Shown piece by piece: positions 11,528 through 20,569 of a DNA stretch of 32,182 nucleotides. The stretch's first letter is position 1. Each line of letters begins with the position of its first letter. This DNA comes from Gammaproteobacteria bacterium (lineage in GTDB: Bacteria > Pseudomonadota > Gammaproteobacteria > CAIRSR01): assembly GCA_963575655.1 (NCBI GenBank), contig CAUYTY010000197.1:1-32182 (forward strand). Direction: 5' to 3'. The translations under genes and the position numbers were made by a program. The notes below the pieces were generated by a model. That model was given only the letters and a program-made list of their open reading frames with translations. It was not told the DNA's origin and searched no databases.

Positions 11528-11694
11528 TAGACATTATCGGAAACCAAAAACCTCACCCCCGCCCCCCTCTCCTTAACAGGAGAGGGGGAGATTTTTTGCC
11601 TGTTCCGTCCAGGAGTTAAGCATAACAACGGAATAATTCTCCCCCCTCCTGTTAAGGAGAGGGGGTTGGGGGGTGAGGTTTCCGATAATGTCTA
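11528..11694. mobile_element. 167-bp palindromic TIR element (MITE-like)
   Basis: TAGACATTATCGGAAACC at 11528-11545 is exactly repeated in inverse at 11677-11694. Inside these ends the arms continue to pair (CCTCACCCCC against GGGGGTGAGG). Each arm carries its own hairpin around CTCCTTAACAGGAG. The element lies between the convergent mltB and sigma-54 activator genes. No clear target duplication is seen. The rest of 11371-11825 holds no gene I can support. Confidence 0.65.
11563..11597 (+). terminator. Terminator-like hairpin inside the TIR element, downstream of mltB
   Basis: CCCCCTCTCCT (11563-11573) and AGGAGAGGGGG (11578-11588) form a perfect 11-bp stem with a TAAC loop. AGATTTTTT follows, ending at 11597. 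It has the form of an intrinsic terminator for plus-strand transcription from mltB, about 190 bases after its stop, supplied by the repeat element. Confidence 0.5.
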
Positions 11695-11825: not shown

Positions 11826-13388
11826 CTAAGACCTATTGCGAAAACGACGCCAGTCAATCCCCAACTTGCGCATACGTGAACGAAGGGTGTGTGGGTTAAT
11901 TCCCAAAAGCAATGCAGCACCGTAGGGTCCCTCGATCCGGCCGTGAGTTCGAGTAAGAACCTCCTCAATGTGATGCACGATAGCAGTATCTAAGGCGGCA
12001 ACATCCTGACTGTTGCTAGGTCGGGCCTGAAATACGGATAACTCGTGGGAAAGGGGCGGCCCATGTTTCGTCGGTCGCGGGTTTGTCCCCAAGGCTCCTG
12101 CGATTTCAAGACACCGACCGTCCCCAAGGATGGCGGCCCGCTCAATCACTGTCGCTAGCTCGCGGATATTTCCCGGCCATTGGTAACCCAGCAACAGCGC
12201 AATATCATCTTGGGTAGGAGCAAGGGCCGATCCTCCCAAACGCATTCCAATCCGCAACGCAAAGTGAGCCGCCAGTGCCGGCAGATCCTCCATGTGTTCC
12301 CGGAGTGGGGGGAGGCGGATGGGGAAAACGCTGATGCGATACCAAAGATCCTCCCGAAAAGCGCCAGTCGCCACCATGGCGGGCATGTCTCGATGGGTAG
12401 CCGCGACAATTCGTACATCTACCGTGAGGGTGCGCTGTCCACCAACTCGCTCAAACGATCCGTCCTGAAGGATTCGTAGCAGACGTACTTGCGCGGCTAG
12501 CGGAAGTTCCGCCACCTCGTCCAGGAACAAGGTCCCCCCATCAGCCCTCTCGAACCATCCCTTGCGGGTGCTAACCGCACCGGTAAAGCTACCCCGCTCG
12601 TGACCGAAGAGTTCCGAGTCCACTAGCTCGGGGGGAATCGCACCGCAGTTGACCCGTACAATCGGACCTCCCACCCGGCGGGAGCGTGAGTGAATAGCAC
12701 GTGCAACCACTTCCTTACCCGAACCGGTCTCCCCCAGGATTAGCACGGGGGCATCGGTGGGGGCCACCTGCTCTACTCGTCCCATTACTGACCTTAATCC
12801 GGAGTCAGCACCGACGATCGACTCCAAGATCTCTTGCCGTTGGAGCCGTGACAGTAGTGCGCGATTCTCTGCCTCCACTGCCTCGCGAAGCCTAGCCAAC
12901 TCGTGGAAGCGTCGATCATTTTCCAGTGCTACCGTGAACGGCTCCAGCAAGGTCTGCATGATGGCTACGTGTTCGTCCAAGAAATGATGTGGCGCTCGCG
13001 TAATCATAAGCAAAATACCTACCTGGCCATCTTCATTAACGAGCGGGCCGGCCAGAATTGACCCGGTAACCTCCGCTGGCACCAGAATATTGAGCAACGA
13101 TGCCGATTTAGGTACAGATTCGTGGATGACAATCCCTTGTCGAAACCAGGCGGACAACCGCTCCAAATCTTCCGGGCGGCAATCGGTGCGCGCCTGTTGT
13201 GGAATGGTACCCGGTCGACAGAGGCTCGCCGCAACCGTTTCAATCAGTGAGCGCTCGGGATCGAAACGACGGATCATGACTAAATCCACGGGAAAACGGC
13301 GACTGAGCACCGGGGCCGTACGGGATATCGCCTCGTCGATCTCAATATGGCGGCAAACCTCTCGCCAAATATCTAGTAGCAAGTACAT
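11826..13388 (-). CDS. Sigma-54-dependent transcriptional activator (GAF, AAA+, Fis-type HTH)
   Basis: The 520-residue bacterial enhancer-binding protein has a GAF-like sensor at about residues 1-160, a coiled linker, an AAA+ domain and a C-terminal Fis-type helix-turn-helix (GAALLLGINPHTLRSRMRKL, about 490-510). Key motifs are Walker A GETGSGKE (219-226), the sigma-54 contact loop GSFTGA (266-271; the usual GAFTGA with Ala to Ser) and Walker B GGTLFLDEV (284-292). There is no receiver domain, so the GAF domain probably binds a small ligand or gas, as in NorR/FhlA-type regulators. The frame continues four codons to a GTG at 13400; I prefer the ATG at 13388, with AAGAG just before it. It is divergent from the gene at 13419. 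A strong sigma-54 promoter match lies about 1 kb away at 14443, in front of the sulfate transporter, a plausible target. Confidence 0.92.
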   Translation of the reverse strand: MYLLLDIWREVCRHIEIDEAISRTAPVLSRRFPVDLVMIRRFDPERSLIETVAASLCRPGTIPQQARTDCRPEDLERLSAWFRQGIVIHESVPKSASLLNILVPAEVTGSILAGPLVNEDGQVGILLMITRAPHHFLDEHVAIMQTLLEPFTVALENDRRFHELARLREAVEAENRALLSRLQRQEILESIVGADSGLRSVMGRVEQVAPTDAPVLILGETGSGKEVVARAIHSRSRRVGGPIVRVNCGAIPPELVDSELFGHERGSFTGAVSTRKGWFERADGGTLFLDEVAELPLAAQVRLLRILQDGSFERVGGQRTLTVDVRIVAATHRDMPAMVATGAFREDLWYRISVFPIRLPPLREHMEDLPALAAHFALRIGMRLGGSALAPTQDDIALLLGYQWPGNIRELATVIERAAILGDGRCLEIAGALGTNPRPTKHGPPLSHELSVFQARPSNSQDVAALDTAIVHHIEEVLTRTHGRIEGPYGAALLLGINPHTLRSRMRKLGIDWRRFRNRS

Positions 13389-13418: not shown

Positions 13419-14030
13419 ATGAAAAAGTCTTATTCACATTTCACCATTGCCGACATTGAAAGACTGGGGATGAATGTTCGCCGTGACCATTTATTTGCCT
13501 TGGTAAATGAAATCTTACCATCGGATTGGTTATTGCAAACCCTGGAAATTAATCAACAAGTGCCCGTTGACTCTGAAAAGGCAAAATCTGAACTATTGAT
13601 TACCCCGCTATTGAACGAAGTACGCCTAAAAAATCCGCAACGGTTTACTTATTTTTCTGGCTATCCATTCAATGTTGACCCAGAACGAGGACTAAAGGGA
13701 TTTTGCGATTTCATTCTCTCCAGAAGATATGACGCGGCCTTCATTAGTGCTCCTTTAGTAGCAATTGTCGAGGCAAAGCACAATCAAGATCTGCCCGATG
13801 CCTCACCGCAGTGTATTGCCGAGATGTATGCGGCCCAACTTTTTAATGAAAAGCATGGGGAAAACATTCGTACTATCTATGGCGCAGTGACTAATGGCTA
13901 TGAATGGCTATTTTTACGTTTAGAAAATCAACAAGTCACCTTGGATATCAATCGCTATCACCTACGGCAGCTTGGCGTGCTGTTAGGGGTTTGGCAGATA
14001 ATCATCGATAGCTTTGCCAATTCAGAATAA
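13419..14030 (+). CDS. Uncharacterised PD-(D/E)XK nuclease-like protein
   Basis: The 203-residue soluble protein has the sequence pattern of a PD-(D/E)XK nuclease core. It shows an acidic residue in a helix (E58, KSELLITPLLNEV), D97 in GFCDFIL, and E118-A-K120 in VAIVEAKHN at the end of the next strand. Helices follow around QCIAEMYAAQLFNEKHG and a strand TIYGAVTNGYEWLFLRL. Proteins of this type are often annotated as hypothetical or as type I restriction enzyme R-like fragments. The active-site set looks intact, but no methylase, helicase or toxin partner is next to it. Thirty bases separate its ATG from the ATG of the divergent sigma-54 activator, so the two promoters must overlap or lie inside the genes. 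I cannot assign a biological role. Confidence 0.7.
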   Translation: MKKSYSHFTIADIERLGMNVRRDHLFALVNEILPSDWLLQTLEINQQVPVDSEKAKSELLITPLLNEVRLKNPQRFTYFSGYPFNVDPERGLKGFCDFILSRRYDAAFISAPLVAIVEAKHNQDLPDASPQCIAEMYAAQLFNEKHGENIRTIYGAVTNGYEWLFLRLENQQVTLDINRYHLRQLGVLLGVWQIIIDSFANSE

Positions 14031-14138: not shown

Positions 14139-14246
14139 GTTCCAACGTAAGCGTTCACTCTCCTCTGGGAGCACGAGCGTCTCGCCAGCTTTTGTGCGAC
14201 CAAGATGGCCATGCTCCCAGAGGGATCTGAACGATTACGTTCCAAC
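14139..14246. repeat. 108-bp palindromic repeat element in the long intergenic region
   Basis: Outer arms GTTCCAACGTAAGCGTTC (14139-14156) and GAACGATTACGTTCCAAC (14229-14246) pair over 15 of 18 positions. Inner arms CTCTGGGAGCA (14163-14173) and TGCTCCCAGAG (14212-14222) pair perfectly. This nested palindrome looks like a REP/MITE-type dispersed repeat. The surrounding 14031-14578 interval of 548 bases has no gene with convincing start and codon signals. Confidence 0.6.
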
Positions 14247-14404
14247 AAGTGGCGATGTAACGCTTCCTCATGATACCTCTTTATTTCCGTTATATACCAC
14301 GGATTAACTTCCATAACTGTTTTATTTAACGGTTTTTCTAGGCCGGAAAACCGTGACCGGGGGCGATGTTTAATCTTGTAATTAGAAAAGTTCACCGTGT
14401 TTAC

Positions 14405-14442: not shown

Positions 14443-14458
14443 TGGCACAGCTACTGCA
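14443..14458 (+). promoter_or_regulatory. Sigma-54 (RpoN) promoter, -24/-12 type, for the sulfate transporter operon
   Basis: TGGCACAGCTACTGCA matches the sigma-54 consensus TGGCACRN4TTGCW with one mismatch. GG (14444-14445) and GC (14456-14457) are separated by exactly 10 bases, the diagnostic spacing. The predicted transcript would start near 14470, about 110 bases before the sulfate-binding protein ATG. No competing sigma-70 promoter was obvious. Confidence 0.65.
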
Positions 14459-14578
14459 CTCCGCCTGACCCGGTGGTGAGCGTTCATTCCCTGCGTAATG
14501 CCTCATTAGAAAGGGGGGGAACGATTGCACCTGACAAGTTGGAACGTTGTTTCCCTGATCACAATCCGGTGAGTCTCA

Positions 14579-15640
14579 ATGAAGAAGATTAATCGAATCA
14601 TCATGATGTTCGTTCTTTCTGGGCTTGGACTGTTGACACTTCTAGACAGTTTTGCAAAAGACCCTGAGTTAAAAGAGCCAGATGGGGTGGTGACACGCAC
14701 CATCACCCTTGGTGCCTATACAACACCTCGAGAGGCCTACGGCAAAACTATCATCCCGCTGTTTAAAAAATACTGGAGAGAGAAGAGCGGCCAGGAGGTA
14801 GTCTTCGAGGAGTCATACCTGGGTAGCGGCGCACAATCACGCGCCATCATTGGCGGCTTCGAGGCAGATGTGGCAGCTCTTTCCCTCGAAGCAGACGTAG
14901 ACGCCATTACTAAGACCGGTCTCATCACCCATGATTGGAAGTCTGGCCCCAATAAGGGCATGGTAACCCGCTCAATCGTGGTCATTGCGACTCGTCAGGG
15001 CAATCCCAAGGGCATCAAGGACTGGGACGACCTGCGTCAGCCAGGGGTCGAGGTCCTAACTCCTAACGTGCGAACCAGCGGCGGCGCGATGTGGAATATC
15101 TGCGCCATGTACGGTGCAGCCCTCCGGGGTGGTACCTCCGCGCCTCAAGGTGATGTGAAGGCAGCGGAGGCCCTCCTTAGTGATGTACTCAAAAATGTGA
15201 TCGTCATGGATAAAGGTGCTCGCGAATCCATTACCAACTACGAAAAAGGCATTGGCGATGTTGCCATCACCTACGAAAACGAGGTGCTAGTAGGCCGAAA
15301 AGCTGGTCAGACCTACGAATATTCCGTACCAAAATCCACCATCCTGATCGAAAACCCTATCGCACTAATTGATGCCTCCGTAAACAAGCACGGAAATCGT
15401 GAAGTAGTAGAGGAATTCATCGCCTTCGTACAGTCCCCAGAGGCACAACGAGCATTCACCCGCTATGGACTGCGACCAGTGGACGAAATGGTGGGTAAGG
15501 AAGTGGTAGACCAGTTTCCACGGGTACATGCCTTGTTCACTATCAACGATTTGGGCGGTTGGCCCAAGGTCAATCAAACGCTCTTCGGCGCACAAGGAGC
15601 CTACGAACGGCTCTACAGCCAACTTGGGGCGGGGCATTGA
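14579..15640 (+). CDS. sbp: Sulfate/thiosulfate ABC transporter, periplasmic binding protein
   Basis: The 353-residue periplasmic protein captures sulfate (or thiosulfate) and delivers it to the CysT/CysW permease. An N-terminal signal peptide is visible (MKKINRIIMMFVLSGLGLL, cleavage probably after SFA near residue 26). The body shows the Sbp/CysP family landmarks: GSGAQSRAIIGGFEADV, GNPKGIKDWDDL, GVEVLTPNVRTSGGAMWN, KGIGDVAITYENEV and FTINDLGGW near the C-terminus. GGTGAG lies 5-6 bases before the ATG. It is the first gene of a four-gene operon, and its stop lies one base before the next start. Sequence alone does not separate Sbp from CysP, so the symbol marks the family. Confidence 0.93.
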   Translation: MKKINRIIMMFVLSGLGLLTLLDSFAKDPELKEPDGVVTRTITLGAYTTPREAYGKTIIPLFKKYWREKSGQEVVFEESYLGSGAQSRAIIGGFEADVAALSLEADVDAITKTGLITHDWKSGPNKGMVTRSIVVIATRQGNPKGIKDWDDLRQPGVEVLTPNVRTSGGAMWNICAMYGAALRGGTSAPQGDVKAAEALLSDVLKNVIVMDKGARESITNYEKGIGDVAITYENEVLVGRKAGQTYEYSVPKSTILIENPIALIDASVNKHGNREVVEEFIAFVQSPEAQRAFTRYGLRPVDEMVGKEVVDQFPRVHALFTINDLGGWPKVNQTLFGAQGAYERLYSQLGAGH

Positions 15641-15641
15641 G

Positions 15642-16472
15642 ATGAATGGAACAAGCGTTGCCGTTGAACCCGGTCGTGGTGGTTTGATGATTCGAGGCTG
15701 GGTAATCGCCTATGTCGCGATGCTGATCGTGATCCCGCTGCTGGCGTTGATAGTGCGTGGCCTGACAGGAGGGCCATCCCAACTGTGGGCGGCGATTACG
15801 ACACCGGTAGCGCTGAATGCCCTGATTCTGACCTTGTGGACGGCGGGGGCAATCTCAATCATCAATGCGGTCATGGGGACGGCAACGGCCTGGGTGTTGG
15901 TGCGGTACCAATTTCCAGGTCGCACGATCCTCTCCGCGTTGGTGGACCTGCCTTTTGCGATCCCCACCCTGGTGACCGGCGTAATGCTGGTTATCTTGTT
16001 TGGTCCTCAGTCCTTGATGGGTAAATGGCTCGCCGGGCATGGAATGAAGGTGGCATTTGCCTCGCCGAGTATCCTCCTGGCATTGATGTTCATCTCGCTC
16101 CCGTTTGTGGTGCGCGCAGTGGAACCAGTGCTCATGGAGCAGGACCCAGCGGAGGAAGAGGCCGCACGGACTCTGGGGGCTGGGCCGCTGACTACCTTCG
16201 TGAGGGTTCTATTGCCACCGATTGTGCCCGCGATCCTGTCTGGGACCATTCAATCTTTTGCGCGCGCGTTGGGAGAATTCGGGTCGATTGTTGTGGTCTC
16301 AGGAAACATCCCCTACCGAACCCTTACCTCGCCGGTATACCTGTTTGGCGAGATCGAGAGTGGACGCTCGGATATCGCCGCAGCAGTGTCGATCTTGTTG
16401 CTGGTCATCGCGTTGGGATTGAACTTCGCGGAGCGGGGCATCCGGCGATTGATGGGGATGAACCGTGCGTAG
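15642..16472 (+). CDS. cysT: Sulfate ABC transporter permease subunit CysT (CysU)
   Basis: The 276-residue inner-membrane permease (E. coli CysU about 277) has six predicted transmembrane segments. It carries the EAA-type cytoplasmic loop that contacts the ATPase (EEEAARTLGAGPLTTFVRVLLPPIVPAI, about two-thirds along). SFARALGEFGSIVVVSGNIPYRT is typical of the sulfate/molybdate permease family. The frame is open upstream to 15528 inside the binding-protein gene. The ATG at 15642, just after the previous stop and preceded by a G-rich segment, gives the family length and is preferred. Its last eight bases overlap cysW, indicating translational coupling. Confidence 0.93.
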   Translation: MNGTSVAVEPGRGGLMIRGWVIAYVAMLIVIPLLALIVRGLTGGPSQLWAAITTPVALNALILTLWTAGAISIINAVMGTATAWVLVRYQFPGRTILSALVDLPFAIPTLVTGVMLVILFGPQSLMGKWLAGHGMKVAFASPSILLALMFISLPFVVRAVEPVLMEQDPAEEEAARTLGAGPLTTFVRVLLPPIVPAILSGTIQSFARALGEFGSIVVVSGNIPYRTLTSPVYLFGEIESGRSDIAAAVSILLLVIALGLNFAERGIRRLMGMNRA

Positions 16473-17295
16473 ACACAACCAAACGGCCAACCGATTCACC
16501 ACCGGACAATGGGCGCTATTGGCGGCGGTGATCTTCTACATGGGCGTTATCTTGCTTCTCCCCTTGGGGGCGATCATTGTCCGCGCCCTCTCGGGTGGGG
16601 TGCAGCCGTTGATCGATGCGTTCCACGATGTCGATGCGCTTCACGGCCTCAAACTCTCGGTAATCTTGGCGGCGATTGCTCTTATCGCCAATGGGGTCCT
16701 TGGGGTTGGTGGCGCTTTGGTGTTGGTTCGTCACCGATTCTTGGGGCGGCGTTTCTTGGACACCCTGATCGACCTTCCCCTGGCTGTCTCTCCGGTAATG
16801 ACTGGGCTTGCCTTTCTGCTCATCTTCGGGCGTGGTGGCTGGTTTGAGCCACTTCTCGACAGCATGGGATGGAAGGTGACTTTTGCTTTTCCGGGATTGA
16901 TCCTAGCGACGCTATTCGTGACCTTCCCCTTTACTCTTCGAGAGGTTGGTTATGTTCTTGAAGAATTAGGCACCTCCGAAGAGGAGGCGGCCGTGACTTT
17001 AGGGGCTTCCCCTTGGAATACCTTTCGATTGGTCACCCTCCCCAATATTCGCTACGGACTTGGTTACGGGATTATTCTTACCGTGGCCCGTGCCCTCGGT
17101 GAGTTTGGCGCAGTACTGGTATTGGGTGGGGCTATCTCAGGAAAAACAGAAACGGCTACCACGTTTATCTACAACGCATTGGAAGAACGGCAGGAAGCGG
17201 CTGCCTACAGCATGGCCCTGGTCCTGGCGGTTGCCAGTATTCTCCTGCTGATTGGCCTTGAGTGGATGAAACATCAACGTAGCAAGGAGTTATGA
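16465..17295 (+). CDS. cysW: Sulfate ABC transporter permease subunit CysW
   Basis: The 276-residue partner permease of CysT has six predicted transmembrane segments. Its EAA loop is EEEAAVTLGASPWNTFRLVTLPNI. The segment ARALGEFGAVLVLGGAISGKTETATTFIYNALEER is characteristic of CysW. The start codon is GTG at 16465, eight bases inside the end of cysT, with GGGGATG a few bases upstream. The next gene, cysA, begins immediately after its TGA. Together with CysT it forms the heterodimeric sulfate channel. Confidence 0.93.
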   Translation: MRRHNQTANRFTTGQWALLAAVIFYMGVILLLPLGAIIVRALSGGVQPLIDAFHDVDALHGLKLSVILAAIALIANGVLGVGGALVLVRHRFLGRRFLDTLIDLPLAVSPVMTGLAFLLIFGRGGWFEPLLDSMGWKVTFAFPGLILATLFVTFPFTLREVGYVLEELGTSEEEAAVTLGASPWNTFRLVTLPNIRYGLGYGIILTVARALGEFGAVLVLGGAISGKTETATTFIYNALEERQEAAAYSMALVLAVASILLLIGLEWMKHQRSKEL

Positions 17296-18327
17296 ATGAG
17301 TATTCGCGTTGCAAATCTTCGTAAGTGTTTCGGTTCCTTCGTAGCGGTTGATGACGTCAATCTCGAAATCCCTTCGGGGGAATTGGTTGCCTTTCTGGGG
17401 CCATCCGGGAGCGGAAAGAGTACCATTCTCCGCATCATCGCTGGCCTAGAGACTGCCGATTCCGGTTCGGTGTTTTTCAATGGCGAAGTTGCTGACCATC
17501 TTCATGCCCGGTCACGGGGTGTCGGGTTTGTGTTCCAACACTATGCCCTGTTTCGCCACATGACTGTAATGGAGAACATTGCCTTTGGGCTTCGGGTCCA
17601 GGGGGCCAGTCGGCAGCGGCAAGCGGCCCGTGTCCGTGAGCTTTTGTTGCTGATGGGGCTTGAAGGGATGGGGGACCGTTATCCCTCCCAGCTTTCTGGA
17701 GGACAGAGGCAGCGTGTAGCGTTGGCTCGCGCCCTAGCGCCGGAGCCCAAAGTGCTGTTGCTGGATGAACCATTCGGGGCAGTGGACGCCAAGGTACGGG
17801 AGGAGCTACGTCACTGGCTACGTCGATTACATGATGAGGTCCATGTTACGTCGATCTTTGTGACCCACGACCAGGAGGAGGCGTTTTCGGTGGCTGATCG
17901 AGTCATCGTTATTCATCGAGGACGGGTCGAGCAGTCTGGCTCACCGGATGAGATCCTCGATCAGCCCGCCACAGAATTCGTCGCCCGTTTTATTGGTGAG
18001 GCCAATGTCTACAAGGCCACAGTAAACGATGGGATTGGTCAAGTTGGCGCGCTTCCTGTACCTGCGGCGGGGATTCCCAACGGCACACAAGCCACACTGG
18101 TAATTCGATTCTACGACCTGAAATTTTGGCTCGACGCTCAAGGAATCGCTACCGTGGTGCGCACCATGACTCTCGGTGATCGGGTCAAAGTCGAAGCAGT
18201 GATCGATGGCGCCACCACCATTTTCTCTCAATTTCCACGTCGTAGCAGTTTATTACGGGGCATCGAACCGGGTTGCCGGATCCATATCGAGGTAACGACG
18301 GCACGGGCCTATCCACAGAGTGGGTGA
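17296..18327 (+). CDS. cysA: Sulfate ABC transporter ATP-binding subunit CysA
   Basis: The 343-residue ATPase energises sulfate/thiosulfate uptake on the cytoplasmic face of CysT/CysW. It has Walker [10 protein letters not shown] (35-43), signature LSGGQ (133-137), Walker B ending LLLDEP (154-159) and switch histidine H191 in [11 protein letters not shown]-terminal TOBE-like segment (about 235-343) is typical of CysA. AAGGAG six bases before the ATG gives an excellent ribosome site, and the ATG directly follows the cysW TGA. The operon appears to end here. A near-perfect palindrome GCGTAGGATGC/GCATCTTACGC follows at 18332-18354, without a T-run. Confidence 0.95.
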
Positions 18328-18781: not shown

Positions 18782-20428
18782 TCACTGTCCCCCGCGCACC
18801 AACCGCACGGCGTAAGCATCGTTACGGCTGCCCCAGTAGTCGTAACCACCGTCGAAACTGACGAACCACGCGTAGTTCGAACTACCAGCGACCGGAGAAC
18901 CGGACCAGAAACTCGACGCTGGGGTATTTGGAAATGCTTCCTGATCAATGGCAGGACGTTGGTAATTTCCCGAACATATTTCATTTACTTTCATAGCACT
19001 GCCAAATACGCCAGTACTACTGCAATAGACCAAGCTTTTTAGTTCTTCATGGGTAGGTACACGCCAACCATTCTGTGTAGCAGGGAGATCGTCCCATTTA
19101 TACTCTTGTGGTGTGCCCGAGCAAGAGCTTCCGGTCCAAGTCTGTCCTTCGGCGCAACGTTTCCAACGTAGCTGGGTCTGGATATCAGTTACCGTACCAT
19201 CGCCGTGATCACGATAGCGACCATGAATTAATTGTCCCGTACTTACTTTTATCCTCGACGTTTGAATTCCCACTCGTGCCTCGGCCTCTTGACGGCGTTG
19301 TTCCGCTTCTCGGCGCTGCTGTTCCATCTCTACCAAGCGTGCCTCCTCCCTCTTTCGCTTTCCCTCCACTTCGGCGAGGCGCGCTCCTTCTTCCGCCTCG
19401 CGGCGCTGCTGTTCCAATTCCTGACGCTGTTTCTCGATTTCCACAAGGCGGGCCTCTTCCGCCTTGCGTTGCTCCTCTAATGCCGACAAGCGACTCTTTT
19501 CCGGGATCGGCGTGATCCCTTGAGGAATATCCTGTTGGGCAAGAGTCGTTGCTGGTTGTTTTCCACCGGATGGACTAGAAAAGTAAAAATGTTTCTGCAC
19601 GGTTTTCGGACCATTTACATAGGGCGTCTGCCGTCGATTACTCTTTTCTTCGACCCATTCACTGGCCACCGTGAGCACACCATCCAGGCTCAGGTCCTTA
19701 CCCGCGAAGGCCACACGCAGTCCCGCAGTAAATAGACCATTGCGTTCCTGACCGTCCTCCGCTGTATTACCAGGATCCGTGGCATAAACGATCACGGTGC
19801 CCTTGGGCATGTCACTGGGTGGCGCTAAACCGCGCCCGCCACCACCCCGAAATTCGCCAGTAAAGGGATTATTCCGACAGGCATCGAGCATAACGATATT
19901 AATCTTGCTCTTGGCATTGTCCATTTCATCGAGGGGATAATTGAGACTCACTCCTTCCTCGGCCACCTCTGCTAGGCTATGCACCGTGGCATCCACCGGC
20001 ATCAAGTAGTTCTGATTCTTACTCTGAATACCATGCCCCGCGAAATAAAACAGAGCGACCTCGGCGTTGCCGGCTTTGCGTCCCAACGTAGCGATGGCCT
20101 CCTTCATTGCACGCCGTGTCATATTCTTTCCGGTGATGACCTCGAAACCAAAACCACGCAAGGCTTTGGAAACATCCTCGGCGTCGTTAGTTGGATTTCG
20201 GAGCTTGGTCAGATGATTAGTGTCTTGGTAATCGCCATTACCGATGACCAAGGCCACCCGCGTCCCTGTTCGTAATTCCGGTCGCTCTCGCTGTGGGCTA
20301 TGGTCTTCCTCGCCGGACCCAGCAGACGTGGTCAATCCCCCAGCAGTACCCCGTTGCAATTCGTCTACGCATCCGACGAACGCCACACAAAGCAGAATTA
20401 TTAGAAGTAGATTCATTCGTTGCCACAT
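18782..20428 (-). CDS. Caspase-like (C14) lipoprotein with coiled coil and C-terminal DUF1566 domain
   Basis: From the ATG at 20428 the product has 548 residues. It begins with a lipoprotein signal (NLLLIILLCVAFVGC, lipidated Cys near residue 20; +2 residue Val, so probably outer membrane). A caspase p20-like domain spans about 55-285, with catalytic His about 132 (YFAGHGIQ) and Cys about 184 (MLDACRNNPF). A highly charged coiled coil runs from about 314 to 384, and a DUF1566 (C-type-lectin-like) domain from about 402 to 548. GAGG six bases before this ATG supports it. The frame stays open 47 codons further upstream to 20569, but those residues belong to an unrelated ATPase fragment. The last 35 residues have NNY-rich codons at most positions, as in DGR variable regions. 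Protease and binding domains suggest a surface sensor or effector; the role is inferred. Confidence 0.85.
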   Translation of the reverse strand: MWQRMNLLLIILLCVAFVGCVDELQRGTAGGLTTSAGSGEEDHSPQRERPELRTGTRVALVIGNGDYQDTNHLTKLRNPTNDAEDVSKALRGFGFEVITGKNMTRRAMKEAIATLGRKAGNAEVALFYFAGHGIQSKNQNYLMPVDATVHSLAEVAEEGVSLNYPLDEMDNAKSKINIVMLDACRNNPFTGEFRGGGGRGLAPPSDMPKGTVIVYATDPGNTAEDGQERNGLFTAGLRVAFAGKDLSLDGVLTVASEWVEEKSNRRQTPYVNGPKTVQKHFYFSSPSGGKQPATTLAQQDIPQGITPIPEKSRLSALEEQRKAEEARLVEIEKQRQELEQQRREAEEGARLAEVEGKRKREEARLVEMEQQRREAEQRRQEAEARVGIQTSRIKVSTGQLIHGRYRDHGDGTVTDIQTQLRWKRCAEGQTWTGSSCSGTPQEYKWDDLPATQNGWRVPTHEELKSLVYCSSTGVFGSAMKVNEICSGNYQRPAIDQEAFPNTPASSFWSGSPVAGSSNYAWFVSFDGGYDYWGSRNDAYAVRLVRGGQ

Positions 20429-20434
20429 CGTGCC

Positions 20435-20569
20435 CTCGCCACCCGTGATAGTGCATGCAGAATATAGAACTTTCAGAAAATGAGTTTTACCCGTACCATT
20501 GGCGCCAATCAAGATATTGACATCCGGTGAAAAGGTTTGATCACAGCACAGCCGAATGCTGTGAAACAT
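20435..20569 (-). pseudogene. Truncated N-terminus of an AAA-type ATPase gene
   Basis: The first 38 or so codons from the ATG at 20569 encode FSPDVNILIGANGTGKTHFL, with Walker A GANGTGKT. That is the typical start of OLD/AAA_21-type ATPases. The similarity ends around LYSA, after which the sequence turns into the leader of the caspase-like lipoprotein gene in the same frame. There is no Walker B or other ATPase part nearby. It is best read as the left-over 5' end of an ATPase gene cut by a rearrangement that brought in the caspase-like gene. A genuine fusion is unlikely because it would bury the lipoprotein signal. Confidence 0.6.

Follow-up and report, generated by a model that had tools for sequence, protein, structure and literature searches.

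Sulfate import in the usual model organisms is controlled by CysB or by unrelated regulators that act with the housekeeping sigma factor; in Escherichia coli, CysB is a LysR-type regulator that works with sigma-70. Sigma-54 enters sulfur metabolism through SfnR, which activates organosulfur (sulfone and sulfonate) use in Pseudomonas. Among GAF-type bEBP cassettes, NorR-norVW has the activator gene divergent from its target, and FhlA also belongs to this type. In other bacteria, the use of aliphatic sulfur sources has been noted to be under RpoN control (PMC4676750), and sulfate ABC transcripts are lower in an rpoN mutant of Paraburkholderia phymatum (PMC5979394). The sections searched in sigma-54 studies of Desulfovibrio (PMC4641369) and across bacteria (PMC3162934) describe no sigma-54 activator of a sulfate ABC operon, and none was found among open-licence papers.

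The window (the whole 32,182-nt stretch of gammaproteobacterial DNA analyzed here) carries a candidate RpoN promoter, a divergent activator gene, and two palindromes that very probably drive a sulfate operon, with the GAF domain of the activator probably reading sulfur status. Sequence comparison supports the parts themselves, their conservation, and the linkage between palindrome and activator. The initial annotation had suggested sigma-54 control, and this proposal is strengthened by the conserved pairing of activator and transporter genes, by conserved −24/−12 sites, and by a palindromic enhancer found in the window when it was held out from motif learning. Coordinates are collected in the table.

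Features of the sulfate operon, its predicted control region, and the neighboring activator gene
Feature	Coordinates	Strand	Basis
Sigma-54 enhancer-binding protein (GAF - AAA+ - predicted Fis-type HTH), 520 aa; proposed activator of the operon	11826..13388	-	Sigma54_activat 2e-68
203-aa ORF between the divergent genes	13419..14030	+	without Pfam or NCBIfam match
Palindromic enhancer 1 (candidate), TTCCGTTATATACCACGGAT	14285..14304		top window match of motif from nine other loci; exact pattern match
Palindromic enhancer 2 (candidate), AACTGTTTTATTTAACGGTT	14315..14334		second-best window match; exact pattern match
−24/−12 promoter (candidate), TGGCACAGCTACTGCA	14443..14458	+	site match and counterparts at ortholog loci
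Sulfate-type ABC substrate-binding protein (sbp)	14579..15640	+	TIGR00971 226 bits (cut-off 155.5); 1sbp E 6e-58
Permease CysT	15528..16472	+	TIGR02139 above cut-off
Permease CysW	16465..17295	+	TIGR00969 above cut-off; best model TIGR02140 below own cut-off
ATPase CysA	17296..18327	+	TIGR00968 above cut-off

The target is a complete sulfate-type ABC operon, sbp-cysT-cysW-cysA (14579–18327, + strand), as the initial annotation had it, with the sulfate subfamily models TIGR00971, TIGR00969, and TIGR00968 all above their cut-offs. The first start of the cysT ORF overlaps sbp, and the true start is probably later. Of the residues that we take to be the sulfate ligands of 1sbp (S45, S130, G131, G132, A173, and W192), the first five are retained in the window protein and W192 is replaced by Tyr, as it also is in two other binding proteins, from a family relative (locus L002) and a Myxococcota MAG (L003); sulfate is the predicted rather than the proven substrate. 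These three proteins form a separate group (64–74% mutual identity, ∼40% to others), and the group with Tyr for Trp192 is common to Thiotrichales and a Myxococcota MAG. Directly 3′ of the operon, the product encoded at 18782–20569 (− strand) combines a caspase domain with an Lcl_C domain.

The GAF-type sigma-54 activator recognized in the initial annotation has the AAA+ motifs GETGSGKE at 219 (Walker A), GSFTGA at 266 (a GAFTGA variant), and GGTLFLDE at 284 (Walker B). The predicted C-terminal Fis-type HTH scores 21.4 bits with HTH_8, slightly below the cut-off of 22, in a region strongly conserved among orthologs. A GAF fold is predicted for residues 1–165, which match numerous GAF domains with a Z of about 14, among them 3k2n, a domain from a Chlorobium sigma-54 regulator. 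The prediction uses the N-terminal domain of a full-length model that is poor in the AAA+ part (pLDDT 20–40, 3 sequences). The ATG at 13388, chosen in the initial annotation, is the more likely start.

A protein search for activator orthologs (E ≤ 1e-100) covered the class (369 genomes), three orders, the phylum (398 genomes), and plasmids, and seven further relatives were followed up. Six (L109–L113 and L117) are divergent from a sulfate sbp, with further sulfate ABC genes after five of them; the L112 contig ends within the first permease gene, and L117 has sbp alone. The remaining one, L121, is divergent from a CitMHS/TrkA_C (SLC13-like) transporter gene. Searching with sbp added two loci: L003, where sbp is 64% identical and the contig stops within the activator gene, and L069, from a Gammaproteobacteria MAG, where YezD-like and porin-like genes (named by eye) precede sbp. 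Across the nine other loci, the ortholog thus lies divergent from sulfate ABC genes in eight and from the SLC13-like transporter in one. A Vibrio protein (H12, 40% identity) was excluded as another bEBP with no sulfate neighbor, and L036 because its match is confined to the AAA+ part. A small YezD-like gene (DUF2292, named by eye) precedes the sulfate genes in L069, L109, and L110.

The nearest genomes (G001–G003) have no activator ortholog and do not retain the arrangement of the window. On the G002 contig that holds L002, sbp is 74% identical and has no adjoining activator; activator, −24/−12 site (p 0.94 for the intergenic region), and palindrome are all absent there, and L002 is a rewired operon. 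At L002 (2052–4000), sbp follows a hydroxylamine-reductase-like gene (by eye).

The promoter candidate matches the consensus TGGCACNNNNNTTGCW with exact GG-N10-GC spacing and one mismatch, just as first described. Its 3′ end lies 120 nt before the sbp ATG; transcription is predicted to start at ∼14469, 12 nt 3′ of the GC and ∼110 nt 5′ of the ATG, in agreement with the 110-base distance given in the initial annotation. By itself the match is weak evidence, since such matches are not above chance genome-wide: those with at most one mismatch number 90, against 124 for a reversed control pattern, and within the window 13 with at most two mismatches are observed vs 15.6 expected. Because pattern counts alone gave no support, orthologs were compared. 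The resulting p values serve only as guides, as intergenic bounds were hand-set, the score penalizes loss of the GG or the −12 G, and same-genus pairs are included (L109 with L110, L112 with L117): in the 548-bp intergenic region of the window the match has p = 0.003 (dinucleotide shuffling), and the best sites in the nine ortholog regions, window excluded, give a Fisher p of 2.4e-9. A site is found in most of these nine regions, so that conservation in relatives speaks for the promoter; sites are weak in L113 (p 0.10) and L121 (p 0.15). Most lie 40–50 nt 5′ of the first gene.

With the window held out, the sequences 5′ of the −24 sites in the nine regions yielded a palindromic motif, TCCGT-N8-ACGGA (learned form TCCGTnAaATtTnACGGA); its log-likelihood was 68.3, whereas 20 shuffled sets averaged 26.4 (sd 1.4, max 28.9). 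The width of 18 was picked after trying 13–22 with the window sequence in view, and hence was not blind; widths 16, 20, and 22 select the same two window sites. The best matches in the 32-kb window are at 14286–14303 (score 19.1) and 14316–14333 (16.2), followed by a third at 11.3. The two palindromes are 30 bp apart, and the −24 element follows them at distances of 157 and 127 bp. In leave-one-out tests, p was ≤ 0.034 at 10/10 loci (combined 3e-16).

An IUPAC pattern built to fit the two window palindromes has exact matches only at these two places in the 4.2-Mb genome. G152 and G674 each have a single matching place, which is the activator locus in both genomes, and no exact match occurs in G001–G003 or in G263, G252, G304, and G395. 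When 80 sbp loci (675,823 positions) were scanned with the motif, sulfate operons without the activator lacked the palindrome; only L003, one of the two activator carriers in this set and itself part of the motif training set, reached a score of 16.2. The palindrome therefore tracks the activator, not the sulfate operon as such. In this genome, the activator appears to be dedicated to one operon.

Other candidate sites were set aside. The direct repeat AACGATTACGTT (14230 and 14406) is not the motif found at the other loci, and one of its copies belongs to an inverted-repeat element. One-mismatch palindromes elsewhere in the genome (C133, C195, and C222) are as frequent as those of the control pattern and were not taken as targets, including the one on C195, which adjoins another bEBP gene; a one-mismatch palindrome in G674 lies inside an ORF. 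On C195 of the same genome as the window (G000; L143, 3135–4990), another bEBP gene lies near a clear −24/−12-like site, TTTGGCACAGGAAATGCAT, before a divergent gene.

Between the activator and the operon there is a single ORF, in keeping with the one intervening gene reported initially. This 203-aa ORF is probably a later insertion, because its GC content is low (about 0.41–0.45 vs 0.55–0.62 in the activator), its relatives (42–47%) are mostly on cyanobacterial plasmids, and a search of the other activator loci found no counterpart. Just 5′ of the enhancer region, an imperfect 44-nt inverted repeat (14139–14246, 75% complementary) looks like a dispersed repeat element. A large inverted repeat rich in C/G runs, CTCACCCCC...GGGGGTGAGG (by eye), lies at 11550–11690, downstream of the activator gene.

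Were the −24/−12 match a chance one, expression of the operon would depend on a sigma-70 promoter and a LysR-type regulator, as with CysB. The genome-wide excess of control matches over one-mismatch sites is compatible with this, but the operon strand shows no sigma-70-like promoter ahead of the genes, conservation extends jointly to promoter, enhancer, and activator, and no CysB relative was detected at E ≤ 1e-30 in this genome or in three family relatives (six other activator-bearing genomes searched do have one). RpoN, by comparison, is encoded in the same genome (Sigma54_DBD 3.6e-69), and absence of a detected CysB next to a present RpoN agrees with the sigma-54 control first proposed; we regard a chance match as very improbable. 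Just as improbable is an ancestral arrangement now broken, in which the 203-aa ORF and the repeats have cut the activator off from its own promoter and the operon starts elsewhere. The inserted low-GC ORF, the repeat element, and a promoter-to-gene gap longer than that at most other loci (120 vs 40–50 nt) would fit such a break, but the activator retains its motifs, the two palindromes are undamaged, and an activator acts in trans.

The signal invites a different reading, namely that the activator senses gas or redox state in the manner of NorR and makes sulfate import respond to nitric oxide or oxygen rather than to sulfur status. A GAF domain is indeed shared with NorR, and the hydroxylamine-reductase-like neighbor of sbp in L002 could be cited in its favor. 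The N-terminal domain, however, does not resemble its NorR counterpart in sequence, the curated NorR model NF003451 scores 319 bits on the activator, far below its cut-off of 476, and the genes identified beside activator orthologs include none for nitric oxide or oxygen response. A GAF fold alone names no ligand, and the gas signal raised in the initial annotation is not supported; we consider it highly unlikely. Since sulfate transporters are constantly found beside the activator, sulfur shortage is the signal we favor, with the GAF domain probably reading sulfur status.

Under sigma-54 control, RpoN-RNA polymerase would transcribe the sulfate ABC operon from the −24/−12 site, and the activator would bind the two palindromes, loop to the closed complex, and open it by ATP hydrolysis. 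The operon would be switched on at sulfur shortage, sensed via the GAF domain. Transcription, direct activator binding, and the sulfur-limitation signal with its ligand are what we infer from the conserved arrangement. Whether the loci together form a hitherto undescribed family of GAF-type sigma-54 activators of sulfate uptake, with the enhancer code TCCGT-N8-ACGGA, small-molecule sulfur sensing, a role as CysB stand-in in the lineage of the window, and members in one Myxococcota MAG as well as in several lineages of Gammaproteobacteria, is an evenly balanced question.

If a dedicated sigma-54 activator is at work, sulfate would join nitrogen and carbon under enhancer-type, ATP-driven control. 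The system points to a little-known switch for sulfur uptake that recurs beside sulfate importers in distant bacteria; its enhancer code could be used to predict it in other genomes, and the sulfur metabolite that the GAF domain would read becomes a matter of interest.

With NorR-norVW, the locus shares a GAF - AAA+ activator with a predicted HTH, encoded divergently from its target, along with candidate paired palindromic enhancers and a candidate −24/−12 promoter; it differs in its sulfate import target, its TCCGT-N8-ACGGA enhancer, and an N-terminal domain dissimilar in sequence. SfnR has in common with it sigma-54 control in sulfur supply, but its target is not a sulfate ABC operon, a distinction drawn from description rather than sequence. 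The target operon type is that of CysB control, and activation under sulfur shortage is presumed here as well, whereas this genome has no detected CysB and would use sigma-54 instead of sigma-70. The P. phymatum rpoN regulon likewise includes sulfate ABC genes whose transcripts fall in the mutant, but in the sections of that report considered, neither an activator dedicated to these genes nor an enhancer or promoter for them is named, and the effect may be indirect (PMC5979394). What appears to be new is the link of a dedicated activator to sulfate import, together with its enhancer code; all of the parts are standard for sigma-54 cassettes.
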